From positions 1 to 64,000 of the forward strand of contig JAOUFG010000003.1 of NCBI GenBank assembly GCA_029858345.1: a DNA stretch of 64,000 nucleotides. Reading direction: 5' to 3'. Source of the stretch: Phycisphaerae bacterium (GTDB lineage Bacteria > Planctomycetota > Phycisphaerae > Sedimentisphaerales > Anaerohalosphaeraceae). The position numbers and the translations under genes are program-made. The notes beneath the pieces are model-generated. The model saw nothing but the letters and a program-made list of their open reading frames with translations, did no database searches and was not told where the DNA came from. Below are positions 2,830 through 56,859 of this stretch, one piece after another (position 1 is the stretch's first letter; every line of letters starts with the position of its first letter).

Positions 2830-4803
2830 ATGGCTATTGTACCCATGCAAAAAGTGATGATCGTTGCTCACTGCAGCCAGTCAGTCGAATTGCTGGAAAC
2901 GCTGCAAAAAGCCGGGATTGCCGAGATATTAGGCACAGAGCACGCATTGATTTGCCTTGAGTGGCCCGAATTAACGGTGGAATTCCGGGGGCATCGCGAA
3001 TTCGAAGACATTCTTGCCCGCATTGAAGAGGCCATTGCGTTCTTACGACCCCATGCAGGCAAAGAGCAAACAAGCGTATTTGCCCCGATGATTGAAGTTG
3101 ACAGCAATATGTATCTTCGTGTGATTTCTGCCGAAGATACGCAAAAACTTTTGGATGAGATCGATGTTGTCAGCCGCCAGATGGAAAAACTAACCATCGA
3201 GGCCGACTACAATATGACATTTCTGGAAAAGCTGCTCCCTTGGAAGTCATTGTCGATCCCCGTTGAGGATTTGTATGGATTGGGTACGTCGACGACTTTT
3301 GCCGGGTTGATCGCCGAACAACATTTTGATGCTGCCTGTGAAAAACTTTCCGAATTAGGTGCCGCTGTTGAAAAAGTGGCGACTCACCACCGGGTGGAGG
3401 CCTGTATCGTTGTTTGTCTCAATGAGTCGGCGGCGAATGTCCAGAAGGCCCTGCGGTCGGTGGAGTTTGAAACCGTTTCATTTGAGGACGTCAGCGGATT
3501 GGTGAATGACAGAACTGTACGGATTCGGCAGCGACTGCAGGAAATTAAGAACGAACAGGCCGAACTGGCAGCAAAGGCCGGCCGATTGGCCGAAGACAAA
3601 CTGAAACTTCAGATTCTGTTTGATCATCTGCAGAATCTTCATCATCGTGCGAGTACTCATTCAGGTGCTCCCGCCTCAGATAACGTCGTTTTCTTTGAAA
3701 GCTGGGTCAAAAAGAAAGACTACCCCGCACTGGAAAAACTGGTGGCGGGATTTGACGCATGCAATGTCGCTCCGATCGAACCCGGACCGGATGAGGAACC
3801 GCCGATGGAAATCGAAAATCCCCCTTATGTACGGCCATTTGAAGCGATTACACGACTTTACGGGATGCCCAGCCCGAGTTCTGTTGATCCGACGGTATTT
3901 CTTGCACCGTTTTTTGCAATCTTTTTCGGTCTGTGTCTGAATGATGCCGCTTATGGAATTATCATGGTGGCTTTGTTGGCCTGGGTTTTGAAAAAAATCC
4001 GCGGCAACAAACGAATGTATTGGATGATGGCCGTCTGCGGCGTGATGACGATTGTTGCCGGTGCAATTACGGGAAGCTGGTTCGGTGATGCGGTTACGGC
4101 TCTTTTGCCTGCCGGCTCCGGCGTGCAAAAAGTGCTTAACGGTGCACGCGAAAAGATAATGCTGTTTGATCCGATGACGAAGCCGATGACCTTTTTCGTG
4201 CTTTCATTGGGATTAGGATACCTGCAGATCCAAGTGGGGCTGTTTGTTGCCTTTTTTGCGAATCTGCTAAAGAAAGATATTGCTGCGGCGATATTCGACC
4301 AATTGACATGGATCGGCATGCTGAATTGTTTTTTGCTGTTGGGATTATCCAAGGGAGGGATTCTTTCGGCTGGATTTGCCAGGCCCGCAGGTTATGCTGC
4401 GATGGGGTTTGCCACGCTGATCCTGTTCTTCAGCGGCCGGGGTATGGGGCTGACGGGACGCCTGGGGATGGGCGTTTTTCAGCTTTTCAGCACCGTGTTT
4501 TATATGGGTGACGTCCTCAGTTATGTGCGTCTGATGGCGCTGGGAATGGTCGGTACCGGTTTTGGAATGGCCACGAATGTGTTAACGAAGCTGGCTGCTG
4601 ACATCCCTTATGTTGGCTGGCTGCTGGGCGCTCTTGTGTTTGTCGCCTTCCATGCGCTTAATCTGGCGCTGTCGGCGCTGGGAGCGTTTGTTCATAGTAT
4701 GCGGCTTCAGTTTGTCGAATTCTTTCCCAAGTTTTTTACCGGTGGCGGTCGAAATTTTAAGCCGTTTCAGAATACGTATCGTTACATTGACATCAAAAAA
4801 TAG
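2830..4803 (+). CDS. ntpI: V-type ATP synthase subunit I (a-subunit)
   Basis: Soluble N-terminal half plus multi-TM C-terminal half (LFSTVFYMGDVLSYVRLMALGMVG; HSMRLQFVEFFPKFF). Confidence 0.9.
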   Translation: MAIVPMQKVMIVAHCSQSVELLETLQKAGIAEILGTEHALICLEWPELTVEFRGHREFEDILARIEEAIAFLRPHAGKEQTSVFAPMIEVDSNMYLRVISAEDTQKLLDEIDVVSRQMEKLTIEADYNMTFLEKLLPWKSLSIPVEDLYGLGTSTTFAGLIAEQHFDAACEKLSELGAAVEKVATHHRVEACIVVCLNESAANVQKALRSVEFETVSFEDVSGLVNDRTVRIRQRLQEIKNEQAELAAKAGRLAEDKLKLQILFDHLQNLHHRASTHSGAPASDNVVFFESWVKKKDYPALEKLVAGFDACNVAPIEPGPDEEPPMEIENPPYVRPFEAITRLYGMPSPSSVDPTVFLAPFFAIFFGLCLNDAAYGIIMVALLAWVLKKIRGNKRMYWMMAVCGVMTIVAGAITGSWFGDAVTALLPAGSGVQKVLNGAREKIMLFDPMTKPMTFFVLSLGLGYLQIQVGLFVAFFANLLKKDIAAAIFDQLTWIGMLNCFLLLGLSKGGILSAGFARPAGYAAMGFATLILFFSGRGMGLTGRLGMGVFQLFSTVFYMGDVLSYVRLMALGMVGTGFGMATNVLTKLAADIPYVGWLLGALVFVAFHALNLALSALGAFVHSMRLQFVEFFPKFFTGGGRNFKPFQNTYRYIDIKK

Positions 4804-4870
4804 TTTTTGCGAGTAAACTGTAAAGAAATGTAAAAGACAAATTTTTGTCATGGATTGAAAGGACTTTTTT

Positions 4871-5362
4871 ATGGCTTTGGAATCAATGGGTTTGACATTT
4901 ACGTTGTTGGGAGCGGCTGTAGCGGTTTTCCTGGCGGGGATTGGGTCGTCGATTGGTCTGGCGACAGCCAGCAAGAGCGCCGCAGCGGTACTGAGTGAGA
5001 AACCGGAACGATACGGTTCACTGATGCTTCTGGTGGTACTGCCCAGTACGCAGGGAATTTATGGATTCGTGGTTGGTCTGTTCGTAATGATCAAGCTGAA
5101 TATGTTCGGCGGCGAAGTCTCTGCGGTCACTTGGTCTCAGGGGGCGGCGATCTTTATGGCCTGCCTGCCGGTGGGAGTCAGCGGTCTGTTTAGTGCGATC
5201 CTGCAGGGCCGAACCGGTGCGGCAGCGATCCTCATGACGGCCAAGCGACCGGAAATGGCGTTCAAGGCCGGTGTGGTATACTCGGCGATGGTGGAGTTGT
5301 ATGCCATTCTGGGCTTTTTGATTTCCTTGCTGATTATCATGATGGGAATCAATGTTGGTTAG
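4871..5362 (+). CDS. ntpK: V-type ATP synthase subunit K (proteolipid, four TM)
   Basis: Two-hairpin proteolipid with LPSTQGIYGF and VELYAILGF motifs. Confidence 0.92.
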   Translation: MALESMGLTFTLLGAAVAVFLAGIGSSIGLATASKSAAAVLSEKPERYGSLMLLVVLPSTQGIYGFVVGLFVMIKLNMFGGEVSAVTWSQGAAIFMACLPVGVSGLFSAILQGRTGAAAILMTAKRPEMAFKAGVVYSAMVELYAILGFLISLLIIMMGINVG

Positions 5363-5410
5363 TCTCGGAAGCCATAAACAGTCGTTTCAAATTATATTTG
5401 GGTACAATCA

Positions 5411-6001
5411 ATGAACGCTGAACAGGTAGTAAAAAAGATTCTCGCCGAAGCGAATGCCAAGGCCGAGAAGATTGTCCATGACGCGAAAGCGAAAGCGGCC
5501 GAACAGATGTCTCAGCTTGAAAACGAGATGACGGATTTTGACGCCGAAACCGGCCGACTGGCCGAGGCGGCGGCCGAAGACAAACTTCAGCGGATGCTGG
5601 CTAACGCGCGTATGGCCAATGCCAAGCAGACTCTGGCGGCGAAAGGTGCGATTCTTGACGAGGTTTTTGAAAAAGCCAACGCCGCTGTCAATAAACTGCC
5701 GGATGATCAATACCTCTCACTGATGACGACTCTGCTGAAGAAAGCCGTCGAAACCGGCGACGAAGAAGTCATTGTCGGCAAAAATGAAAGCCGGATCAAT
5801 GAGCGGTTCATCACCCAGATGAATCGTCAGTTGAACTCCGGCTTTAAGAGAAACCTTCGTCTCGGCAGCCGGCGCGCGGATATCACGGGCGGATTTATCC
5901 TTTCCCGCGGCAAGGTGCAGATCAATGCCAGCACGGATGTACTGATTGAATCGCTTCGGGAGCGTATGGAAATTGAGCTTTCACAGGAACTTTTTGCGTG
6001 A
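5411..6001 (+). CDS. ntpE: V-type ATP synthase subunit E
   Basis: N-terminal coiled coil, operon position, C-terminal GGFILSRGKVQINASTDVLIESLRERMEIELSQELF. Confidence 0.85.
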   Translation: MNAEQVVKKILAEANAKAEKIVHDAKAKAAEQMSQLENEMTDFDAETGRLAEAAAEDKLQRMLANARMANAKQTLAAKGAILDEVFEKANAAVNKLPDDQYLSLMTTLLKKAVETGDEEVIVGKNESRINERFITQMNRQLNSGFKRNLRLGSRRADITGGFILSRGKVQINASTDVLIESLRERMEIELSQELFA

Positions 6002-6010
6002 AGACGCAAT

Positions 6011-6082
6011 TAGAACCACTAATTAACACGAATGAACACTAAAAAAATAATTCGTGTATATTCGTGTTAATTCGTGGTTCTA
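6011..6082. repeat. Intergenic inverted repeat (AACCACTAATTAACACGAAT ... ATTCGTGTTAATTCGTGGTT)
   Basis: Long near-perfect palindrome between ntpE and ntpC. Confidence 0.75.
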
Positions 6083-6104
6083 AACAGAAAAACGGATATA
6101 GAAA

Positions 6105-7148
6105 TTGGCAATTGCCTTGAAAACCGAGATTGATTTTTACCGCTATCCGCCGGTCGGGCCGGAGGATTGGCGGTATGCGTATCCGACGGCGAAGGTGCGG
6201 GGATTGGAACTGTCGATGATTCCGCGCGGCACGTTCGTGGATATGACCAATGCCGGTTCGTTTGCCGAAGCGGCGGAACTGCTGGCCGGTACGGAGTATG
6301 CGGTGGGTGCGAAAGCGACGTCTGATGAGATTGAGCAGATGCTGATAGAGCGTCGCAGCGACATCCGTCGGTTGTTTGGCGATTTCATACTGGATCAACA
6401 CGTTGTTGAATTCTTCAGGATGCACGAGGATTTTACGAATATGCGTTTGGCAGTCCGGCGTGTGGTTACAGAGAAACCACTGGGGCTGGATTACAGCAAG
6501 GAGGGGAATGTGCCTGTTGAAGAATTTGAAGAGATATTTGAAGAGGAAAACTATGAGCGTTTTCCCGCTTATTTACAGGATGGAGTTGAGGCGGCTGTCT
6601 TGGGTTACTATCAGGACAAGGATATTCGGCGAATTGATTATGAACTCGACCGCGTGGAAGCCGCCTGGCGCGTCAAACAGGCTAAGAAGTCTACGCTGAC
6701 ATTTATGTTATCCTTGGTTCGGCTTCAGATCGACCTGAATAATATTCGTACGATGCTCCGTCTGAAGATGGCAAATCGCCTGGAAGAAACAGCCCTTTTT
6801 ATTCCTGACGGCTATGTCGAAACCGACAAGTTCAAACAGGGCTTGGAAGTGGGTTATGAATCCATCGGTCAGGTGTTTTACGTGACACCGTATTATGAAC
6901 TGTTGGAAGCATCAATCCCGTATTTGCGTCACGAGCAGTCTTTCCTGAAACTGGAAAAAGGATGCGAAGATTTCGTGATAGGATTTTTGAAAATAACGCG
7001 ATGTATCGCGGCCGGGCCGCAACCGGTGATTGCGTACTTTTTAATGAAAGAGACCGAGATTCGCACGGTGCGAATGATGCTGGTCGGCAAAAAAAATGGC
7101 CTGGACGCCAAGCTGCTGTTGGACCGTCTTGGCGAGTGGATATCGTAA
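6105..7148 (+). CDS. ntpC: V-type ATP synthase subunit C
   Basis: Operon position; YYQDKDIRRIDYELDRVEAAWRVKQAKKS...EIRTVRMMLVGKKNGLD typical of the V-ATPase C/d subunit. Start appears to be TTG. Confidence 0.8.
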   Translation: MAIALKTEIDFYRYPPVGPEDWRYAYPTAKVRGLELSMIPRGTFVDMTNAGSFAEAAELLAGTEYAVGAKATSDEIEQMLIERRSDIRRLFGDFILDQHVVEFFRMHEDFTNMRLAVRRVVTEKPLGLDYSKEGNVPVEEFEEIFEEENYERFPAYLQDGVEAAVLGYYQDKDIRRIDYELDRVEAAWRVKQAKKSTLTFMLSLVRLQIDLNNIRTMLRLKMANRLEETALFIPDGYVETDKFKQGLEVGYESIGQVFYVTPYYELLEASIPYLRHEQSFLKLEKGCEDFVIGFLKITRCIAAGPQPVIAYFLMKETEIRTVRMMLVGKKNGLDAKLLLDRLGEWIS

Positions 7149-7153
7149 AAACG

Positions 7154-7233
7154 AAACTGCGGATTTCGCAGATTTTCGCGGATTCATAAATGTTATAAAT
7201 AATCTGTGTTAATCCGTGAAATCCGTGGTTAAT
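7154..7233. repeat. Intergenic inverted repeat, same general family
   Basis: AACTGCGGATTTCGCAGATTTTCGCGGATT ... AATCTGTGTTAATCCGTGAAATCCGTGGTT. Confidence 0.65.
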
Positions 7234-7254
7234 ACAACAGAAAGGTAAATTGAA

Positions 7255-7575
7255 ATGGAAGGCAAAGCGGCGGTCTTAGGCAGTGCCGATTTTGTGATGC
7301 CCTTTGCGGCGTTGGGTCTGGATACGTTTCCGACCGAACCGGATGCAGAGCAGGTGCAGGAAAAGGCCGCTTCCATTCTCAAGGAAAAGTACGCCCTGGT
7401 GGTGGTCGCAGAAAATATCGCCCGTTCCGCACACGTTATCTTTGAGGAAAAGGCGCATGATGCGACACCGTGTGTGGTTGTGGTGCCGTTTACGACTGAG
7501 CCGGAGGGCATTGCGACAGAAGCGTTGGGTAAAATGCTAATCATGGCGACGGGAATTAATATTCTTAAAAATTAA
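7255..7575 (+). CDS. ntpF: V-type ATP synthase subunit F
   Basis: Short ORF (FVMPFAALGLDTFPTEPDAE...KYALVVVAENIA) between C and A subunits. Confidence 0.82.
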   Translation: MEGKAAVLGSADFVMPFAALGLDTFPTEPDAEQVQEKAASILKEKYALVVVAENIARSAHVIFEEKAHDATPCVVVVPFTTEPEGIATEALGKMLIMATGINILKN

Positions 7576-7598
7576 GAATCTATCATTAAAAAGGTTTT

Positions 7599-9380
7599 AT
7601 GATGGCTGAATTCAAAAATGGGAAAATAATTAAGGTGGCGGGGCCGGTGGTTGTGGCCGAGGGTATGATCGGCGCGCGTATGTACGACGTCGTTCGCGTC
7701 GGTGCGGAAAACCTGATCGGTGAGATTGTCGAACTGCAGGGGGATCGTGCCAGTATCCAGGTATACGAGGACACGGTCGGTATCGGCCCCGGCGAAGTAG
7801 TGGTCAATACCGGCGCCCCGTTGAGCGTGGAACTTGGCCCCGGGCTGATCTCCAGTATCTATGACGGCATTCAGCGTCCGCTGGATCAGTTGGTCGAGGC
7901 ACAGGGCAGCTTCATCAAGCGGGGCAGTGATATTCCCGGTCTGAAGCGCGACACAAAGTGGCACTTTACCCCGACGGCCGAAAACGGCAGCGACGTCTCC
8001 GCCGGTGACATCGTCGGTGAAGTCGTCGAGTCCACCCTGGTCAATCATAAGATCATGGTTCCCCCGAAAGCTTCCGGCAGGCTCGAAGGCCTTAGCGAAG
8101 GTGACTATGCCGTCGATGAGGTCATCGGTACCGTGACTGATGCGAATGGGAATAAGACCGAACTGAAGCTGATGCAAAAATGGCCCGTGCGTCATCCGAG
8201 ACCGAACAGCCAACGACTCGCACCGAACCAGGTGCTGGTGACGGGCCAGCGTGTGGTCGATGCGTTCTTCCCGCTGGCACGGGGCGGAACCGCCTGTGTG
8301 CCGGGACCGTTCGGCACGGGTAAAACAGTCGTTCAGCACCAGTTAGCCAAGTGGATCGACGCGGACGTCGTGGTCTATGTCGGCTGCGGCGAACGCGGCA
8401 ACGAGATGACTGACGTACTGATGGAGTTTCCGGAGCTGGTGGACCCGCATTCCGGCGAACCGCTGATGAAACGTGTTGTCTTAATCGCCAACACCTCCGA
8501 CATGCCGGTGGCCGCGCGTGAAGCAAGCGTTTACACCGGTATTACGATTGCCGAATACTTCCGCGATATGGGCTGCTCGGTGGCGTTGATGGCTGACAGT
8601 ACGTCTCGTTGGGCTGAAGCCATGCGTGAAATTTCAACGCGTTTGGAAGAAATGCCTGCGGAAGAAGGGTACCCGGCCTATCTGGGCGCCCGTATCGCAT
8701 CGTTCTATGAGCGTGCGGGTCTGGTTGAATGTGCCGGCTCGCCGCAACGTAACGGCGCGGTTTCCGTCATCGGTGCGGTCAGCCCGCCCGGCGGCGACCT
8801 GTCGGACACCGTGGTGCAGGCCACCTTGCAGGTCGTTAAGGTGTTCTGGTCGCTGCAGGCCCGGCTGGCTCAGCAGCGTCACTTCCCGGCGATTGACTGG
8901 CTGACCAGTTATTCGTTTTACAAACAGTATATTGCCGATTCATTCGAAGACAAGGCGATGGGTAAAGAATTTGCGGACATGATGCAGCAGGCGATGAACC
9001 TGCTTGAACAGGAATCGCAACTGGTCGAGATCGTTCGTCTTGTCGGCGCTGAATCCATCAGCGCCCAGGACCGGATGACGCTCGAAACATCCAAGAGCAT
9101 TCGCGAAGACTTCCTGCACCAGAACGCGTTCCATAAGGTTGATACCTTTACGCCGATTGAAAAACAGCACGAGATGATTAAATTGATTCTTCATTTCCAT
9201 CAGGCAGGATTGAATGCGATAGAACAGGGTGTTGAAACCGCGGACATCTTCAAGCTGCGGGTTCGTGAGGATATTGCCCGTGCGAAATATATTGATAACG
9301 AAAAGGTTGAACAGGTTGCTGCGATCAAAGATGAAGTTGACCGGCAGATGAAAGAACTGCAAGCGGCAGTAACTGCATAA
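7599..9380 (+). CDS. ntpA: V-type ATP synthase catalytic subunit A
   Basis: Walker [45 protein letters not shown]. Confidence 0.97.
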
Positions 9381-9411
9381 TCGAAAAAATGTAGCAAAAT
9401 GCGAAAGTCAT

Positions 9412-9475
9412 GTAAGAGTTCAAGCTTTAGCTTGTTTCGTGTGACATTATGACACACGAAAGTGTGAACTCTTAC
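9412..9475. repeat. Intergenic hairpin between ntpA and ntpB
   Basis: GTAAGAGTTCA...TTTCGTGTG..CACACGAAA..TGAACTCTTAC inverted repeat. Confidence 0.7.
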
Positions 9476-9494
9476 GGTAAACAGGAGTTATTAA

Positions 9495-10880
9495 ATGCTG
9501 AAAGAATATAAAACGGTTTATGAGATTTCCGGCCCGCTGATGATGGTCGAAGGTGTCGAGAATGCCAAGTACGGTCACATTGTGGACATTGAACTGGGTG
9601 ACGGCTCGATGCGCCACGGCCAGATCCTGCAGGTCGAAGGCGACAAGGTGATGGTGCAGGTCTTCGAAGGCACTTCCGGAATCAATGTCAGTCAGACAAC
9701 GGTTCGCTTTCTGGGCAAGCCGATGGAATTAGGGGTTTCGCCCGACATTCTCGGCCGCGTCTTCAGCGGCACCGGTGTTCCGATTGATAACGGCCCGAAG
9801 ATTATTCCCAAGATGAAAATGAACATCAACGGCAATCCCATCAACCCTTATGCGCGGGACTATCCGAATGAGTTTATTCAGACCGGCATCAGCACGATTG
9901 ACGGGTTGAACCCGCTGGTTCGCGGCCAGAAACTGCCGATTTTCTCCGGCTCGGGTCTGCCGCATGATGAAATCACGGCACAGTTGGCCCGTCAGGCATC
10001 GGTTCGCGGCAAGGGGGAATCGTTTGCGGTCGTCTTTGCGGCGATGGGCATTACCTTTGACGCGGCACAGTTTTTCATTAACGACTTGACCAACACCGGC
10101 GCGATCGAACGTGCGGTGCTGTTTATCAATCTGGCCAACGACCCGGCGATCGAGCGTATCGCGGCGCCGCGTGTGGCGCTGACGGCCGCAGAGTACCTGG
10201 CGTTCGAGGAAGACATGCACGTATTGGTGATTCTCAACGACATGACCAACTACTGCCAGGCGTTGCGCGAGATTTCCGCCGCTCGTAAAGAGGTCCCCGG
10301 CCGGCGTGGTTTCCCGGGCTATCTCTATACTGACCTGGCGACGATTTATGAACGAGCCGGCCGCGTCAAGGGCAAAACCGGCTCGATCACGATGGTGCCG
10401 GTGCTGACGATGCCCGAAGATGACAAGACGCACCCGGTGCCGGACCTGACCGGTTATATCACCGAGGGCCAGATCATTATGAGCCGCTCGCTGCACCGTA
10501 AGGCGGTATCGCCGCCGGTGGATGTGCTGCCGTCACTGTCGCGTCTGAAGGACAAAGGCATTGGCCCGGACAAGACGCGCGAGGATCATGCGTCGCTGTA
10601 TAACCAACTGTATGCCGGATATGCCCGCGGCAAGGAAGCACAGGAACTGGCGACGATTCTCGGCGAAGCGGCCCTGTCCGAAGAGGACCAGAAATATATG
10701 CGGTTTGCCAATGAGTTTGAGGGCCGCTATATCTCGCAGGGGTACTACGAGAACCGCGATGTGATGACCACGCTGGACCTGGGATGGGAACTGCTGAGTA
10801 TGTTCGACGACGCCGAACTCAAACGTATCGACAAGGAACTGATCGACAAATACATGCCGCAGTTCAGAAAGAAGAACTAA
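9495..10880 (+). CDS. ntpB: V-type ATP synthase subunit B
   Basis: [83 protein letters not shown]. Confidence 0.97.
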
Positions 10881-10953
10881 CCGCGGATTACACGGATTAG
10901 CACGGATTTTTTTAATAAATATGTTTCCGCGTAAATCCGCGAAAACCGTGGTT
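10879..10953. repeat. Intergenic inverted repeat between ntpB and ntpD
   Basis: AACCGCGGATTACACGGATTAGCACGGAT ... TCCGCGTAAATCCGCGAAAACCGTGGTTT. Confidence 0.7.
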
Positions 10954-10973
10954 TAAAATAATGGAATTATAAG

Positions 10974-11591
10974 ATGCTTCAGAATGTCAACGCAACACGA
11001 ATGGAATTGCTCTCACTGCGAAAGCGGGTGGGGCTGGCGCTGCGCGGTCACCGTCTTCTCAGCGAAAAGCGTGACGAGATCTGCCGCCAGCTGGTACAGA
11101 TCGCCCGTGACCTCAAGAGTCTGCGAACCAAAGTCGAGCGTGAACTTCTGGAGACAACCCGCCGGTTTATGATGGCCCGTGCCACGATGGAACCGGAACA
11201 CACCCGTGCGGCGATGGAAGTGCCGACCAAGCGGTTTAAGCTGGTGATGACGTTCGCCTCGATCATGAGTGTGAAGGTCCCGCAACTGGCCAAGGAGATC
11301 GAAGGCGACATCATGTGCTACGGGTTCGCCACCACTTCCGGCGAGATGGACATTGCCCTGCGGGCGTTGGAGCGGGCATTTGACAGTTTGATCGAGCTGG
11401 CCGAAAAGGAAAAGCAGTGCCAGCTCTTGGCGACCGAGCTGCAATCGACCCGCCGGCGTGTGAATGTGCTGGAGCATGTGGTCATTCCCGAAACCAAGGA
11501 AACGATTAAGTACATCTACGACAAACTCGGCGAAGCCGAACGCGACAACATCAGCCGACTCATGAAAATCGCCGACATCATCCGCGGGTAA
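10974..11591 (+). CDS. ntpD: V-type ATP synthase subunit D
   Basis: NVNATRMELLSLRKRVGLALRGHRLLSEKRDEI..RRVNVLEHVVIPETKETIKYIYDKLGEAERD. Confidence 0.93.
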   Translation: MLQNVNATRMELLSLRKRVGLALRGHRLLSEKRDEICRQLVQIARDLKSLRTKVERELLETTRRFMMARATMEPEHTRAAMEVPTKRFKLVMTFASIMSVKVPQLAKEIEGDIMCYGFATTSGEMDIALRALERAFDSLIELAEKEKQCQLLATELQSTRRRVNVLEHVVIPETKETIKYIYDKLGEAERDNISRLMKIADIIRG

Positions 11592-17578: not shown

Positions 17579-17653
17579 CGGAGAGTAGCTCAGCTTGGCC
17601 AGAGCGCTGCGTTCGGGACGCAGAGGTCGCAAGTTCAAATCTTGTCTCTCCGA
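17579..17653 (+). tRNA. tRNA-Pro (anticodon CGG)
   Basis: CGGAGAG acceptor, GCTC..GAGC D-arm, CTGCG-TTCGGGA-CGCAG anticodon arm, GCAAG-TTCAAAT-CTTGT T-arm, CTCTCCG acceptor. CCA not encoded. Confidence 0.95.
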
Positions 17654-19140
17654 CTCTTCTCACTTTTAGCCGTTTTAGACAAAATCTCAAACGGCTTTCT
17701 CTTTTCTACACAAAGACTTACGTCGCTTAAATGTCGGTTCAAACTGACGATTTCCAGAAGTTTGCGTTTTTCGGCAGAGTTTGAACCGCGCCAATAGTCT
17801 TCGATATTTTGCGAGAACTCAAAAATACCCAAAATTCGTTTTATTCGGTCACTTTCGGGCTCGTATGGGGTCATTTGTAGGGTCATTTTCAGGGACTTCT
17901 CCTCCGTAGTCAGCTCGGTCGTCTTATTTTGTAGGGTCATTTCGTCAATGAGTGCTCCCAGGTATGCGGTCAAAAGCCGGTCCTTCATACCCTGTATTTC
18001 CGACAGTCGTTTTTTCATTTGGCGGTTTTGTTGTCGCTGATATTCAGATGAATCCGACAAGGCCATTTCCAGTGTGGTTCGGAAGGCCGCTCGGAAGCCC
18101 CTGTCGGGGATGACCATTTGTTTTAGTTCATCCAAAATAGACCGCTCAACATCTTCCTCTTTCCATCGGACGGCCGGATGGTCCGGGTTCGACTCATTGT
18201 TTCCGCATCGGTAGTAAATATGTTCCCGGTGTCCACCGCCCTTTAATTTCCGGCGTATCCGTTCACCTGTAATGGCAAATCCGCAGTGAGCACATCGAAG
18301 GAGTCCTCCTGCAAGCGGCAGGTCTGCCACACTGGTTCTGCGGTTTTTCCCATTCAGAATGTCTTGACACTTATCAAAAATAGACTTGGTGATGAATAGG
18401 CGATGTTTGCCGGGGTACTGTTGTCCCTTATATGTGACCTCCCCGATATAAAAACGGTTGTTAAGAATGTACGACAACGCTGGCCTGATAAACTTCGGTT
18501 GGCTGTTTCGGTAAATATGTCCCTCCCGGTGCAATTTGTCGGCCAGTGTTTGAAAAGTATAACCACCGCGTGCGTACAATTCGAATATCCGCTGCACAGC
18601 ACGGCTTTTTTCGGGGTCGGGCTTGATGGGTTCTTCTTTATCGTTCCCATCATTACAATACCCATATGGAGCCAATCCCGGTGCCCAGCCCTGAAGAACC
18701 TTTTCTGAAATGCCTTTCTGTACCTCGGTTCGCAGGTTATCGCTGTAATACTGCGCCACCGCTGCCATTACGTTAAATGACAACATTCCCGCAGCACCAG
18801 GACCGAATTCATTGTCCACAAACGCCAGTTTCACACCATACTTATCTTCCATTTCCTGCATCCGAACCGCATCACGCATGTTCCGGCAAATACGATCCAG
18901 CTTATGACTGAGAATGGCCTTAATATCTTTGCGTTTTGCGTTGTTCTTGACCCAGGAAACCATCTCATTAAAAGCCTGCCGATCAGCGCCTCTGCGGGCG
19001 GATTCAGCGACTTCGAATGCATGAACCACATTCCATCCTTCCCGCTGCGCTTTTTCCTTACAAACCCGCAATTGCGCATCAATTGAGTATCCTTCCCGCT
19101 GTTCCCGCGATGAAACTCGTGCCCAAATAACTGTATTCAT
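17635..19140 (-). CDS. large serine recombinase (phage integrase)
   Basis: VIWARVSSREQREGYSIDAQL catalytic start; SHKLDRICRNMRD; recombinase domain; zinc ribbon CAHCG..C; C-terminal coiled coil. Confidence 0.93.
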   Translation of the reverse strand: MNTVIWARVSSREQREGYSIDAQLRVCKEKAQREGWNVVHAFEVAESARRGADRQAFNEMVSWVKNNAKRKDIKAILSHKLDRICRNMRDAVRMQEMEDKYGVKLAFVDNEFGPGAAGMLSFNVMAAVAQYYSDNLRTEVQKGISEKVLQGWAPGLAPYGYCNDGNDKEEPIKPDPEKSRAVQRIFELYARGGYTFQTLADKLHREGHIYRNSQPKFIRPALSYILNNRFYIGEVTYKGQQYPGKHRLFITKSIFDKCQDILNGKNRRTSVADLPLAGGLLRCAHCGFAITGERIRRKLKGGGHREHIYYRCGNNESNPDHPAVRWKEEDVERSILDELKQMVIPDRGFRAAFRTTLEMALSDSSEYQRQQNRQMKKRLSEIQGMKDRLLTAYLGALIDEMTLQNKTTELTTEEKSLKMTLQMTPYEPESDRIKRILGIFEFSQNIEDYWRGSNSAEKRKLLEIVSLNRHLSDVSLCVEKRKPFEILSKTAKSEKSRRDKI

Positions 19141-50665: not shown

Positions 50666-51160
50666 TTGGACACAATCGAATTCAAGCCAATTGGGATTAT
50701 ACATACGCCATTTACAAAAGATAGTGAAATTCCAAGACAAGCAGTGAGCGCCCCGGAAATTTCTGGAACTATTGAGATCAAAGAAGAATATGTAGACGGT
50801 CTTTTGGATTTGAAGAAATTCAGCCATATCGTCGTTGTATTTCACTTACACTTAGTTACTTTTACTGAACTTATTTCTTGTCCGCCATGGGATGATAAGC
50901 ATGGTATTTTTTCAACATGTTCCCCTTACCGTCCAAATCCAATCGGAATTTCTGTAGTCAAGCTAAATAAGATTGCAGGGAATAAGATTCATATTTCCTG
51001 TATTGACATGGCCGACGGAACACCTGTACTTGACATAAAACCATATATACCAGATTTATATCCTCAAGAGAATATTAAAGTTGGCTGGCTTAACAACAAA
51101 ATTGCTCTTATGAATAAGGGGAAATCAAAGATATTATTTGAGCCATTAATAGATAATTGA
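50666..51160 (+). CDS. TrmO/TsaA-family tRNA methyltransferase-like protein
   Basis: EFKPIGIIHTPFTKDSEIPRQ..GLLDLKKFSHIVVVFHLH..GIFSTCSPYRPNPIGISVVKL..GTPVLDIKPYIP. Confidence 0.85.
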   Translation: MDTIEFKPIGIIHTPFTKDSEIPRQAVSAPEISGTIEIKEEYVDGLLDLKKFSHIVVVFHLHLVTFTELISCPPWDDKHGIFSTCSPYRPNPIGISVVKLNKIAGNKIHISCIDMADGTPVLDIKPYIPDLYPQENIKVGWLNNKIALMNKGKSKILFEPLIDN

Positions 51161-51193: not shown

Positions 51194-52525
51194 TTGTTAG
51201 AACAAAAAGATATAATTTTGAAGTCTCGCTTAGAGGCGTTTGTAAAAAAAGACGGCGACTATTGGTCGTTTCGTGGTAAAGCTGTACGCGAGCATGCACA
51301 TGCATACTTTCAATATCCGGCCATGATGGTTCCTCAGATGCAAAGTGAGCTTATAGGCATAATTAAAGATATTTCTCCTGGTATTAAAAGGATTTTAGAT
51401 CCATTTGTAGGATCTGGAACAACCATGACCGAAGCTATGCTCCAAAATCTTGATTTTACCGGGCAAGATATAAATCCTCTGTCATATCTTCTATGCAGAG
51501 TAAAAAGCGGCCCCTTTTTCTTGCCGAGCATAGTCAAAAAAGCACAAAAAGTAGTTGGCAAGATCAATCGGTTAAGATCAAAAAAAATCGAAGTTGAATT
51601 TGCTGGCATGAACAAATGGTTTCAACACAACATAGCAATAGAGCTTTCTCATATTAAAAGAGCAATACTCGAAGAGGACTCTAAATGGGCACGTAGATTT
51701 TTCTGGATAACACTGGCCGAAACTGTTCGTTTAACAAGTAATTGTCGAACATCAACATATAAACTTCACATTCGACCAAGACAAGAAGTAGAAAGCAGAG
51801 GAATATCAGCGAAAGATATTTTTAATAAGATTCTTTTTCGTAATATTGATAGACTCTCAAAAATACACGATATGCTTGATGAAAGGAAATTGCTCAACAG
51901 AGGACATTATAAAGGTGAGATAAATATATGTATAGGAGACACCTCGAATACTATTAAGAATGCGCACACAAGCGATCTTTTAATTACTTCGCCGCCATAC
52001 GGAGACAATAACACGACCGTGCCTTATGGCCAACATTCATATTTACCTTTACAATGGATTCCTCCATGTGACATTATATCTAATCTTGATGGTACATACC
52101 TTAATACAACACATGAAATTGACAGAAGAAGTTTGGGGGGATCTCGAAAGAATGCCGTCTCTAAAAGCCAATATCTTAATGATAAATCATACACGTTCCA
52201 GAAAATGATGAATTTACTTGAAAATAAACCCTCCGATTGTCAATCAAGACTCGCGGCTTTCTGTGTGGACTTAGATGCTTCATTAGAGCTGATAATTAAT
52301 GCCTTAAAACCTGACTCATATATGATATGGATTCTCGGAAATCGACGAATAGCAAATAAAACAATACTCGTTGATGAAATTGTATCAGATCTTTTAGTCC
52401 ATAAAGGATGCATTAGAATTACAAAGCTACAGCGTAGAATACCAAACAAGCGAAGCGCTAGCAAAAACAAAACAACATCGACAATGAACTCTGAAAGTAT
52501 CCTTGTGTTGCGAAAAACAGTATAG
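51194..52525 (+). CDS. DNA methyltransferase (TSPPY type)
   Basis: ILDPFVGSGTTMTEAMLQNLDFTGQDINPLSYLL; LLITSPPYGDNNTTVPYGQHSYL. Confidence 0.85.
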   Translation: MLEQKDIILKSRLEAFVKKDGDYWSFRGKAVREHAHAYFQYPAMMVPQMQSELIGIIKDISPGIKRILDPFVGSGTTMTEAMLQNLDFTGQDINPLSYLLCRVKSGPFFLPSIVKKAQKVVGKINRLRSKKIEVEFAGMNKWFQHNIAIELSHIKRAILEEDSKWARRFFWITLAETVRLTSNCRTSTYKLHIRPRQEVESRGISAKDIFNKILFRNIDRLSKIHDMLDERKLLNRGHYKGEINICIGDTSNTIKNAHTSDLLITSPPYGDNNTTVPYGQHSYLPLQWIPPCDIISNLDGTYLNTTHEIDRRSLGGSRKNAVSKSQYLNDKSYTFQKMMNLLENKPSDCQSRLAAFCVDLDASLELIINALKPDSYMIWILGNRRIANKTILVDEIVSDLLVHKGCIRITKLQRRIPNKRSASKNKTTSTMNSESILVLRKTV

Positions 52526-52566: not shown

Positions 52567-53736
52567 TCATGTTTTTTTCAAAATTACAATATGTTCTGAA
52601 TTTTGCCTTCCGAGACTATCAACAATCCTCTGATCTGAATACTTTCTTTTTATATAACCACTTAAGTTTTCATATTTAAAATGTTCAACTAACAAGCGAG
52701 CGATATCAACATAGCTCGATTCAGAAAGCACATTCCTTTTTCTTTTAGTTGCATCAATAACCATCCCAATTAAACCACCTTTTTTTAGAACCCGATTTAT
52801 ATTCTCAAATGAACCAAGAATATCTTCAACATATTGATCAAGTTGGGTTTTTCTTGTGCGTTTCCATCTCGCTCCAATTTCAATTTCTTTGTCGGCATTG
52901 AGATTCCATCCAAAAAGATAATAAGATAGCCTGTGAGCTTTAGTATAATCAATAACAGAAGGGTAAGGTGGTGAAGTTATAATAGCGTCCACTTCTTCTA
53001 CACACTTAATCGGTTGACGACAGTCATGTAAAAATGCGTCACTTTTATGAGCAGCATCTATTTGCATGTCAACAATATCTCTTGTTTGATAATAAATTTT
53101 TTCAAGAGCACGTATCATTTCCTCACAATGGCTTGCAAACATCTTCAATATATCTTTGTCTTTCAGGTTTTTGGGAGTTACATTATCGGCTACCCACCCC
53201 CAATGCTTCTCTTGGGAAGAACTGGATTTTAGCACGTGCGATAAACATACGCGAAAAAATATTTTATCCTCATTTTCTGCGTAGTGATTAATATTGTTCC
53301 ATATACTTAACAAGTCCATCAATGTGGTCGGTGAGAACCAATCCCTCAACATTTCATGACTTGCTGATATATCATGTCTTTGATTGTCCAGTAAACGATC
53401 AGCACTTCTTTCACAAATAGATGAAAGCTTTCGTCGAAGCGATTCTACTGAATATTCATAACACTTCACTTTAGAGATCAATACCGCCATAGGGTTACAA
53501 TCCATACCTATAGCAACCCTTCCAAGTTTTATCGCTTCTACCAATGTAGTGCCACAGCCACAAAACGGATCAAGTATCTTCTCTCCTCGTGACGTAAGCA
53601 GGCGGACTAAATTGTTCGCGATCTGAGGAATAAAAACGCCAGGATACCAATGCAAGCCATGTATGCCTTCTTGCGTCCATGCACCTTTAAAGTTCCAATC
53701 AATAGAATTTATTTCTTTTAATATTTCATTTGTCAT
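52567..53736 (-). CDS. DNA methyltransferase (TSPPY type)
   Basis: ILDPFCGCGTTLVEAIKLGRVAIGMDCNPMAVL; AIITSPPYPSVIDYTKAHRLSYYLFGW. Confidence 0.87.
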   Translation of the reverse strand: MTNEILKEINSIDWNFKGAWTQEGIHGLHWYPGVFIPQIANNLVRLLTSRGEKILDPFCGCGTTLVEAIKLGRVAIGMDCNPMAVLISKVKCYEYSVESLRRKLSSICERSADRLLDNQRHDISASHEMLRDWFSPTTLMDLLSIWNNINHYAENEDKIFFRVCLSHVLKSSSSQEKHWGWVADNVTPKNLKDKDILKMFASHCEEMIRALEKIYYQTRDIVDMQIDAAHKSDAFLHDCRQPIKCVEEVDAIITSPPYPSVIDYTKAHRLSYYLFGWNLNADKEIEIGARWKRTRKTQLDQYVEDILGSFENINRVLKKGGLIGMVIDATKRKRNVLSESSYVDIARLLVEHFKYENLSGYIKRKYSDQRIVDSLGRQNSEHIVILKKT

Positions 53737-53744
53737 GTTGGTTC

Positions 53745-54977
53745 TTAATCATTAAAAGGCAATAATGATTGACTGCTCTCTTTTATTATGTCCGCATGTA
53801 AATAGTTATCACCAGGAGAAACCTTTTCGAATATACTAAAGTTATTCCGCATGAAATCATCACACGACTCTTGCTCATATTTGGCCTGACTAGAATACTT
53901 GCTAATAACTCCTATAAGGGCCTTGTGTGACGGTGGAGATTTACCAATGTACCGCTCTCGTTTATCACGTATGTAATCAATAATTATTCCTTTGCCAATG
54001 TTGTCATTTGCTTGCCTTTGAAGATTCTCTCTTTTCAAATTGTCCATTAAAGCGCTAACTTCTTTTTCACCTTCAATCCAATACATCCCAACAAGTCTAT
54101 AGTATTGCCCAAGCAAAAGCCCCTTTATCAGGTCGGCTGTCTCTGGTGCCTCAATTAACTTGTGAAAAAGTTGCTGGTCTGTTAAATACCAATCATTTAC
54201 AGATATTATTTTACTCTTTAAGCCGATACAAACAGCCTGCTTGGTCATGCTTTTTGCAACAAAGTCTGTGGGTTCTGGCATAAGTATATTATATAGATTC
54301 CGTCTAAGTGAAAGCCATTTCTCGAACAAGTTTCTCCTATTCAAAGAAATCGAGATCGTTCCTCTCGACACCTCAAAAATGTTAATAAAGCTGAAAACTT
54401 CTTCAGCTGGAACTATTACTCCCAACCTTGTTAACATTCGTGCAACATTATCAATGTTATCAAGATCCATTGAACCATTTATGGCATCTTTACATCTACC
54501 TTGGCCAGCTATTGCGTCAAATACAGAGATAGAAGAGACATTTAAATCATTCATTAACTTTCGACAACCTAACTCTTTGCCTAAATATGCCTGGTAATAT
54601 GGTTGTTCTTCACATATTACTATCTCTCGAAGTTTTTTTTCATGATCAAACTCTACTCCTGCTAGTTTACATCCTTCTTCAAAGAGATGCCCGAGGCCTG
54701 GTGCGGAGACGTCATGAAGGCCTGCGGCCAATGTTAGTTCTGATTTAAATTGTTCATCTAATTTCAATTTTTCTGCAAGCTTCCACGCAAGTATGGCTGT
54801 GCCAACGCTGTGTTCATAACGTGAAACTCCACCAATTGCGGTTAATGAACATGAATCTATATTAGAAAGTGATACTTGGCGAAGACGTTGAATCTCCGGC
54901 AAAAGCAGTATTTTGTGTATTAGTTCAGGAATTTTTATTTTACCGTATACTGGTAAAGTGATATGTTCTAAATTCAT
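53745..54977 (-). CDS. HD superfamily phosphohydrolase (COG1078-like)
   Basis: LPEIQRLRQVSLSNIDS..GGVSRYEHSVGTAILAWKLAEKL..LAAGLHDVSAPGLGHLFEEG. Confidence 0.87.
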   Translation of the reverse strand: MNLEHITLPVYGKIKIPELIHKILLLPEIQRLRQVSLSNIDSCSLTAIGGVSRYEHSVGTAILAWKLAEKLKLDEQFKSELTLAAGLHDVSAPGLGHLFEEGCKLAGVEFDHEKKLREIVICEEQPYYQAYLGKELGCRKLMNDLNVSSISVFDAIAGQGRCKDAINGSMDLDNIDNVARMLTRLGVIVPAEEVFSFINIFEVSRGTISISLNRRNLFEKWLSLRRNLYNILMPEPTDFVAKSMTKQAVCIGLKSKIISVNDWYLTDQQLFHKLIEAPETADLIKGLLLGQYYRLVGMYWIEGEKEVSALMDNLKRENLQRQANDNIGKGIIIDYIRDKRERYIGKSPPSHKALIGVISKYSSQAKYEQESCDDFMRNNFSIFEKVSPGDNYLHADIIKESSQSLLPFND

Positions 54978-56179
54978 GATTTCTCCGGGTATTTAAGTTC
55001 ACTTATATTATCTATATCTTTATAAAATCGTGGATAATCTACCAGTGAAAAAATTGATTTGAAAGATGGCGTTCCCATTTCAACTGATGGCTCACCTATT
55101 AAGGTAACCATAGAATATGTTCGCTCGGCTTCAATCATATGGATCAGAAATCTTGTCAAGAAAGACTCTTCTTCGCAATACCTATAAACCAGTAGGCCAT
55201 CATATATGACAGTTCCAGGGAGCCGCTTGCCTTTAATGACTTTTTTGAAATACTTAAATGCTTTAGCGCAACCAGAATGGATTCCTGGAGTCGATGATGC
55301 ATGAAAGATCTTATATCCATCTGAACGATGTTTCACTAATGTTTTTTTGAAAATCTCATCATCCCCACCAAATAATTCCGTAAAACCGTCGATAATAACC
55401 ATATTATTTCTGAGTTTACTTTGGTTGGGTTCTCCCCAGGATGCCTCAAGATACGAAATAATGAGTGATGGATGATGGCGACAGGTTATAAGAGTTACAG
55501 TCTCTCCATTTTCAATATGTTCCTTTGTAATTTTAGATATTAATTGTAACCAGGATAATGTATTTTCATACGCGACCAATAAGGAGAAACCCCGAACTTT
55601 AGTTTGCCACTGTTTTATGGGGACAAGTTTGGTTAAAGATGTGTATTTGTCTAACGGTATTCGATCCTGAACACTAATTTCATAATGCTGAGACATAAAC
55701 GATTCGATTTTCTTTACACCATATCGTATCACCGGAAAATGTTTAACTGATTGCAAAAATGACCTTTCCTTAAATTTTTCAACTCTCAAGTAGGCAAGAA
55801 TTACAACTCGCAGGAAAAAGTATATTAAGGAAAATGCATAAAACATGATAGCAAGGAACAGGAGAAGTCCAGGCATAGCCCCTGTTCGTTTAAACATGTT
55901 AACTAAAATCCATGCGAGGCACTGAAGAATGAACGCAAAAAGAACGACTATAAGCACTCTATGAAGCTCACGCCTTGTTTGTCTAAGTTCAACATCTTTA
56001 GTATAAAGAGCATAAAGAGTAAGAATAAAACCTGCAGTTAAACCATAAAATTTCAATAAATCCCCGACGTATGGAGATAACTCCGTATCATACCATGTAA
56101 AAAACGTTGAAATTATCGAAAGAATTCCTGTAACATTCACAGGGGTCTGACTAACATTAGTTTGAATCAGCATATTCAT
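54974..56179 (-). CDS. membrane protein with C-terminal RecA/KaiC-like domain lacking a clear Walker A
   Basis: Three to four N-terminal TM helices; GFSLLVAYENTLSWLQLISKITKEHIENGETVTLITCRHHPSLIISYLE..NMVIIDGFTELFG. Confidence 0.6.
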   Translation of the reverse strand: MNMLIQTNVSQTPVNVTGILSIISTFFTWYDTELSPYVGDLLKFYGLTAGFILTLYALYTKDVELRQTRRELHRVLIVVLFAFILQCLAWILVNMFKRTGAMPGLLLFLAIMFYAFSLIYFFLRVVILAYLRVEKFKERSFLQSVKHFPVIRYGVKKIESFMSQHYEISVQDRIPLDKYTSLTKLVPIKQWQTKVRGFSLLVAYENTLSWLQLISKITKEHIENGETVTLITCRHHPSLIISYLEASWGEPNQSKLRNNMVIIDGFTELFGGDDEIFKKTLVKHRSDGYKIFHASSTPGIHSGCAKAFKYFKKVIKGKRLPGTVIYDGLLVYRYCEEESFLTRFLIHMIEAERTYSMVTLIGEPSVEMGTPSFKSIFSLVDYPRFYKDIDNISELKYPEKS

Positions 56180-56859
56180 TTTATTTGCTCCTCAGAAGTA
56201 TTAATAAAATGACGACATGGTATGATTAACTTTGAGAAATCCGAACGGATTTCTTCTGGTCTGGCATGTTCTTTTGTTCCTTCGTCTGCACAATGGCACT
56301 TGGGTTCCAATGGCCGTGGAGTTATAGAATACTCCGAAAGCATCCGACATGCGTGTTCTTTGCTTTCGAGGTTCCAGACTGGCAATTCTAATTTTAATCC
56401 ATACTCCCCAAGGAAATTCTCAATTTCTTCAATAGCTGTAGGACTTTGTTCAACCCATGCAGATTGATAGGAGGTAAAACCGGTCGCAATTGTGTCAATA
56501 GAGTGTTTTTTAGCAAGTATGATAGCCACTGAAAGCTTTACCATGAAGCAGTTAAAGCAAGACGGTGAAGTCAGGATGGGAATTCCTAAAACCTTGGCAT
56601 AAAATGCTGGTACGCGAATTGACAACCAAGAAAAAGGTGAATTAACATTATTGTGTAATTCTTTAACTCGTTGCTCTGTTTTTGTATCATCTTGGATGCC
56701 TGAATCGATAACAGTAATTAACAGAGGATTTCTTTTTGCATCGAGTAGCTTTAAGGCAGCGCAAGAAGAATCTCTGCCTCCAGAAAAGCATAAAACTACG
56801 TCTGATGCATCTAAAGGATACCAGAAACTTTTTTCAATAATGTATTTATTGTTGCCCAT
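56176..56859 (-). CDS. PP-loop (N-type ATP pyrophosphatase) superfamily protein
   Basis: VVLCFSGGRDSSCAALKLLD; ITVIDSGIQDD; SPSCFNCFMVKLSVAI; DTIATGFTSYQ; LEPKCHCADE. Confidence 0.85.
   Translation of the reverse strand: MGNNKYIIEKSFWYPLDASDVVLCFSGGRDSSCAALKLLDAKRNPLLITVIDSGIQDDTKTEQRVKELHNNVNSPFSWLSIRVPAFYAKVLGIPILTSPSCFNCFMVKLSVAIILAKKHSIDTIATGFTSYQSAWVEQSPTAIEEIENFLGEYGLKLELPVWNLESKEHACRMLSEYSITPRPLEPKCHCADEGTKEHARPEEIRSDFSKLIIPCRHFINTSEEQIK

Follow-up and report, generated by a model that had tools for sequence, protein, structure and literature searches.

Our results identify a block of genes within a 64,000-nucleotide (nt) stretch of DNA from a Phycisphaerae bacterium (contig JAOUFG010000003.1, positions 1 to 64,000; hereafter the window) as the type D form of an uncatalogued modular cassette with an invariant core, composed of an HD phosphohydrolase and a DNA methyltransferase (MTase), and swappable partners. 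That the module is conserved is near certain. In the window, the HD gene (53745..54977, minus strand) and the MTase gene (52567..53736, minus strand) follow genes for a PP-loop ATP-pyrophosphatase (56176..56859, minus strand) and a membrane protein (54974..56179, minus strand), and the window cassette contains an HD protein with a DLDNxDN motif beside an MTase with an EIGAR motif, one tailoring enzyme and one effector-like gene. In a tentative model set out below, this combination would serve in immunity.

A widespread core with swappable partners

A survey of 84,980 species genomes for the core yielded 17 loci, 15 of which are true members while the two others, both haloarchaeal, are ordinary HD relatives without an MTase. 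Together with loci on plasmid pA of R. etli and on one viral contig, two further loci (L072 and L073) and the window itself, this gives 20 cassettes. Their hosts span archaea (ANME-1, Thermoplasmatota and Heimdall) and bacteria (Rhizobium, Bradyrhizobium, Pseudomonas, Sedimenticola, Bowmanella, Clostridia, a spirochaete and the window's own order). The HD gene is directly followed by the MTase gene in every cassette for which enough contig is available (the contig of L024 stops inside the HD gene), and in L073 the two are fused into one protein of 816 amino acids (aa). In the HD and MTase trees, the cassette types fall largely into matching clades; we rely on these shared clades rather than on a mirror-tree test, which gave a Mantel r of 0.72 (p about 2e-4) but a Spearman coefficient of just 0.12. 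The R. etli cassette (L003:8787-13047) appears degraded: its flavin adenine dinucleotide (FAD) protein gene is divided over different frames, and its kinase-deaminase gene survives only as a remnant.

The cassette MTases are DNA N4/N6 MTases of the alpha type, in which DPFxGxGT (DPFCGCGT in the window) precedes TSPPY, and their matches in the PDB are DNA m4C/m6A MTases. They share DPFxGxGT, TSPPY and PF01555 with other alpha-class enzymes but differ from these in having an HD partner and in keeping a DNxxP and EIGARxKR region across very distant hosts: DNxxP is found in nearly all of them and an EIGAR-like motif, of the form EIGARxKR in the window family, in all, and neither motif was found in the related solitary MTases tested. 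MTase-only viral matches (L037-L051) belong to the wider MTase family, tandem or solitary, and were not counted as cassettes because they have no HD gene; among them, L037, L038 and L039 encode tandem fusions of about 960-1075 aa with two TSPPY domains related to the cassette MTase.

Around the core, the partners are exchanged between types. Type A has an FAD oxidoreductase upstream and a guanylate-kinase::dCTP-deaminase-like protein downstream; type B, from Clostridia, has a B12-binding radical S-adenosylmethionine (SAM) protein upstream and a DUF4062-NACHT protein downstream; type C has a carbamoyltransferase-ASCH protein and a 364-aa protein; type D (the window and L072) has the PP-loop enzyme and the membrane protein; and type E (L035 and L073) has a PurM/ThiL-like AIRS protein and an unclassified protein of 409-433 aa, with an extra HIT protein in L073. 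The two type E AIRS proteins are 29% identical to each other, and their unclassified companions show no mutual BLAST similarity, having only their size and a C-terminal hydrophobic segment in common. In a hydropathy scan, a transmembrane (TM) segment was present in the second partner listed above in all five type A cassettes tested and in the sampled proteins of types C, D and E, and no clear TM segment was seen in type B. We infer a cassette with four slots, for HD, MTase, tailoring enzyme and a putative effector.

The cassettes are repeatedly found in the company of defence genes (type I R-M and type III-like R-M, that is restriction–modification, as well as AbiEii and TIR-TPR). Some loci lie in mobile elements, as indicated by an integrase, phage GPA, a type IV secretion system or a viral contig, and the cassette is all but missing from a set of 50,697 phage records. 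The TIR-TPR gene (L025:1012-3600) and the AbiEii toxin gene (L018:12946-14037) lie near HD-MTase cassettes, consistent with defence islands.

A six-gene unit distinct from the type I R-M genes

The original prediction had described a four-gene block appended to a type I R-M operon, the whole forming a single directon of roughly 10 kb. The gene layout was reproduced exactly: the PP-loop/membrane and membrane/HD junctions are 4-nt overlaps, 8 nt separate the HD and MTase genes, the PP-loop open reading frame (ORF) starts 39 nt past the end of hsdS (56899), and hsdR, hsdM and hsdS overlap as well (hsdM/hsdR by 4 nt, and hsdS with hsdM). The identities proposed for the HD protein and the TSPPY DNA MTase are borne out by PF01966 (2.5e-7) and PF01555 (1.3e-18; 68.2 bits against a cut-off of 26.7), respectively. 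The PP-loop protein matches the QueC, QatC and TtuA families weakly, under curated cut-offs, and the membrane protein had no match in the family searches. The block is not limited to these four genes, however, as two convergent plus-strand genes past the end of the MTase gene had been overlooked. The first encodes a second DNA MTase (51194..52525; TSPPY; PADLOC MTase_II) and the other a TrmO-like SAM-dependent methyltransferase of the tRNA m6t6A family (50666..51160; PF01980/TIGR00104), the only TrmO match in the window's genome. A relative of the second MTase in another locus (L085:5733-8526) has as its neighbour a 226-aa gene similar to those of MvaI/BcnI restriction enzymes, by eye apparently inside a cysD/cysN sulfate-activation operon.

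All six genes, including the four named in the original prediction, recur in identical order and orientation in L072, from a genome (G723) of another family of the same order. Identities between the two loci are 69% for TrmO, 65% for the second MTase, 63% for the membrane protein, 60% for HD, 59% for the MTase and 57% for the PP-loop protein. The type I system beside the L072 block is a different one, with only 26% identity in HsdR and 27% in HsdS, and 230 nt plus a 241-aa gene separate it from the PP-loop gene. Homologues of the PP-loop protein occur in only 2 of 397 sampled genomes of the class, each time within the block, and the strong homologues of the second MTase are confined to the two block-bearing genomes among 161 of the order, with one additional distant relative (33%). 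In the window, the six genes have a GC content of 0.36-0.39 and a GC content at third codon positions (GC3) of 0.29-0.32, compared with GC3 values of 0.66-0.72 in hsdR and hsdM, 0.44 in hsdS and 0.55-0.63 in the upstream phage-like genes. Because of the synteny beside a different type I system, the low homologue counts and this break in composition, we conclude that the unit proper comprises six genes and that its linkage to this hsdRMS is not conserved.

These data bear directly on the idea that the block is an accessory of the type I R-M operon, co-transcribed and cooperating with hsdRMS. The shared strand, the 39-nt gap and the overlapping genes all fit that idea, as does the presence of an R-M-like system next to the block in each of the three relatives from the order. 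However, GC3 drops from 0.66-0.72 to 0.29-0.32, the neighbouring system is an unrelated type I in L072, where it is also set apart by a gap and a gene, and a type III-like one in L073, and the HD-MTase core is found in other contexts elsewhere. We therefore consider this explanation highly improbable; an obligate link is largely refuted, although co-transcription may occur here. Of the single directon, the common orientation stands while the composition breaks around the hsdS/PP-loop junction and the adjacent R-M system is not conserved. A gene block can thus mimic part of an R-M operon and yet be a separate mobile cassette.

Predicted activities of the hydrolase, the PP-loop enzyme and the membrane protein

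An AlphaFold2 model of the HD protein, built with 15 sequences (mean predicted local distance difference test (pLDDT) score of 84), has SAMHD1 structures as its best solved matches in Foldseek (TM-score 0.72 by query), and a PDB profile search, the tree and the motif table also place the protein in the SAMHD1 superfamily as a member of a divergent clade (HD..GH..E, MDLDNIDN). The metal ligands H56/H88/D89/D173 are conserved together with H97, E100 and H112, giving the window protein both the fold and the metal/catalytic His-Asp set of the superfamily. The MTase-linked HD proteins form a clade apart from ordinary relatives (support 1.0, long branch) and differ from them in the pocket: DLDNxDN is present in 18 of 18 MTase-linked proteins tested while ordinary relatives have D.D[RKM].DY, none with N at both positions. 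The R/K and Y of DxDRxDY, which are residues of the triphosphate pocket, are accordingly replaced by N and N in all 18, and there is no His at the position of SAMHD1 H210. We take the changed residues to be K312 and Y315 of the SAMHD1 triphosphate site. Because these triphosphate-site residues are changed, we infer that the HD protein would hydrolyze an unusual nucleotide rather than ordinary deoxynucleoside triphosphates (dNTPs).

The cassette HD thus resembles SAMHD1, COG1078 and dGTPase proteins, including those of dGTPase anti-phage defence, in fold and catalytic residues while differing from their D.D[RKM].DYL.R signature and in its obligate MTase partner. None of the ordinary COG1078/SAMHD1 genes (L009-L017, L033/L034 and most further matches) was seen with an MTase partner, and their motifs are of the D.D[RKM].DY type; they were treated as the outgroup. 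A dGTPase or dNTP-depletion defence was rejected since the window HD does not match the PADLOC dGTPase model, for which only the HD protein of L021 gave a weak partial match (30.6 bits).

At 227 aa, the PP-loop protein is minimal. Its residues S26, D30, C101, C104 and K108 are spaced at offsets of +4, +75, +78 and +82, which are identical to those of the essential TtuA residues S55, D59, C130, C133 and K137 (PMC9821441), and C188/C190 lie at +162/+164, compared with +167 for the third cluster Cys of TtuA. It thereby resembles the [4Fe-4S] thiolases TtuA, TtcA and Ncs6, with SGGxDS, CxxC and K at equal spacing and a later Cys, and on this basis likely thiolates a base. It differs from these enzymes in having no added RNA-binding domain and in its HD, MTase and membrane-protein partners. 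Because the protein is so small, its substrate is suggested to be small or presented to it. The closest solved sequence is PDB entry 9kq6.

The kinship with TtuA, the linked TrmO gene and, partly from general knowledge, the tRNA-modifying relatives of MnmG/TrmFO-like FAD proteins and Kae1-like carbamoyltransferases would fit a module in which these enzymes modify tRNA, for instance against anticodon nucleases. We consider this improbable: the MTase has a DNA-type TSPPY motif and DNA MTases as its PDB matches, no RNA-binding domains were detected, and none of the other cassette types was seen to carry TrmO.

The nearest experimentally linked relative of the PP-loop protein, at 27% identity, is TgsB from the 6-thioguanine operon of S. 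chromogenes, for which a role in 6-thioguanine synthesis has been proposed and E. amylovora YcfA named as functional counterpart (PMC7994395). The two proteins are similar in size and in their predicted nucleobase thiolation. This relationship, together with the minimal size of the window protein and the kinase and dCTP-deaminase-like domains of type A, raises the possibility of a free antimetabolite or second messenger: a thio-nucleotide made by the PP-loop enzyme would poison phage replication or bind the membrane effector while the MTase would sense DNA. We regard this as unlikely, because TgsB lacks the CxxC pair of the window protein and because it works with a pyridoxal-phosphate-dependent cysteine desulfurase and NUDIX proteins that are absent from the block, as is an exporter. 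The neighbours of TgsB, which also include HAD, differ from the HD and MTase of the block. On an Alicyclobacillus plasmid (L005:7989-10699), NUDIX, transporter and HAD genes accompany a gene for a TgsB-like PP-loop protein, with no adjacent cysteine desulfurase gene seen.

PP-loop enzymes also occur in the defence loci of Qat (QatABCD) and of the Dnd/Ssp sulfur systems. The Qat system was rejected as an identification, as the window protein scores only 19.8 bits for QatC against a cut-off of 280 and QatA, QatB and QatD are absent among the block genes. No DndC/SspD-type partner was seen in the block.

In the membrane protein, two or three N-terminal TM helices are joined to a cytosolic alpha/beta domain, in which no Walker A motif is recognisable. 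The degenerate RecA-like domain suggested earlier finds some agreement in a single-sequence model, whose best matches include KaiC/PH0284-type RecA folds (E about 2e-3); the model is of low confidence (pLDDT 50) and there is no family match, leaving the domain possibly RecA/KaiC-like. No true relative of the protein was found in viral contigs, plasmids, phages or 294 genomes of the phylum. A match in L007 (37% over 35 aa) was set aside as likely due to chance.

A possible role in immunity

Because enzymes of diverse base chemistry surround a fixed nucleotide hydrolase and its DNA MTase partner, because a membrane or NACHT protein accompanies them, and because defence islands recur around the cassettes, we suggest that the type D cassette is an immune module that works with deoxynucleotides modified on the base, a reading that we hold tentatively and rate as somewhat less likely than not. 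In our model, the PP-loop enzyme, as a minimal TtuA-type [4Fe-4S] enzyme, would adenylate a nucleobase carbonyl and exchange its oxygen for sulfur; its substrate would be either a nucleotide or a base that the MTase has flipped out. The joint product of MTase and tailoring enzyme, within DNA or among the free nucleotides, would be a rare modified (deoxy)nucleotide, with a derivative of deoxycytidine as the most likely candidate; a cytosine theme across TSPPY MTase, dCTP-deaminase-like domain and TtcA-like cytidine thiolation is suggestive only. The HD protein with its altered triphosphate pocket would hydrolyze the modified nucleotide and keep its level low. Infection might upset this balance through breakdown of host DNA or through unmodified invading DNA, and the putative nucleotide-binding domain of the membrane protein would then respond by damaging the membrane. 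A precedent for a base-modified nucleotide as immune signal is deoxyinosine triphosphate (dITP) in Kongming (PMC12948488). The logic of nucleotide enzyme and nucleotide-sensing effector would be the same as in Kongming and other nucleotide-signal immunity, but no KomABC proteins are recognised in the cassette.

Several observations weigh against this model. Position +106 of the PP-loop protein is Q132, which is not acidic, leaving the essential D161 of TtuA with no acidic counterpart there. That the membrane protein acts as an effector is argued from its topology and by analogy of slots, the cassette MTase may simply methylate DNA, and the mechanism assigns no part to TrmO or the second MTase. 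Type D is known from two genomes and types C and E from two loci each.

An alternative that dispenses with an immune effector is protective hypermodification of DNA or RNA, in which a thiolated or methylated base would shield a mobile element or the host from restriction and the HD protein, with its dNTPase fold, would clear the normal nucleotide that competes with it, much as DatZ acts in Z-genome phages. Tailoring enzymes of varied chemistry around a DNA MTase fit such a role, as do the loci in mobile elements. Yet the membrane protein of types A, C, D and E and the NACHT protein of type B would be superfluous for protection, the HD pocket is unlike that of normal dNTPases, and hardly any phage records contain the cassette. 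We regard this alternative as rather unlikely.

Extending the immune model beyond type D, we speculate, with considerable doubt, that the cassettes represent a new class of immunity with swappable chemistry, in which the HD-MTase core and any of at least five tailoring enzymes would produce a rare modified deoxynucleotide watched by a membrane or NACHT effector. In the window type, the nucleobase would then be thiolated, which might make this the first signal to consist of base-thiolated DNA or of a base-thiolated deoxynucleotide. If true, bacteria and archaea would share a modular system combining one fixed enzyme pair with many base chemistries and effectors, nucleotide-based immunity would gain a new family, the divergent SAMHD1-like clade would acquire a role, and the carriers would offer a route to new modified bases. 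In agreement with the original prediction of an uncatalogued module resembling nucleotide- or DNA-modification systems, no system in PADLOC, NCBIfam or PHROG covers the cassette or its four named genes. Nothing relevant to the gene combination was found in the open-access literature, and papers outside it may have described the combination recently.

The surroundings of the block in the window contain further features, recognised by eye. A phage-like region (17579-50547) contains a serine-recombinase-like gene (17635-19140) next to one for tRNA-Pro and, after these, ORFs of phage type that include portal- and tail-type ones. This region precedes the block, but the idea that the block is prophage cargo was rejected, as no tRNA-derived direct repeat that would mark the far end of the region was found in the contig and the L072 context is not prophage-like. 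Just past hsdR and on the opposite strand, an ORF (63083-64183) that ends outside the window resembles DUF91/NucS-type endonucleases. A V/A-type ATPase-like operon (2830-11591), encoding two large subunits (593 and 461 aa) along with small ones, has a GC content above that of the cassette. Further downstream in the contig, L077 (contig positions 65515-71649) holds what by eye is an apparent natural-product cluster with aminotransferase-like, amidinotransferase-like and large B12/radical-SAM-like genes.

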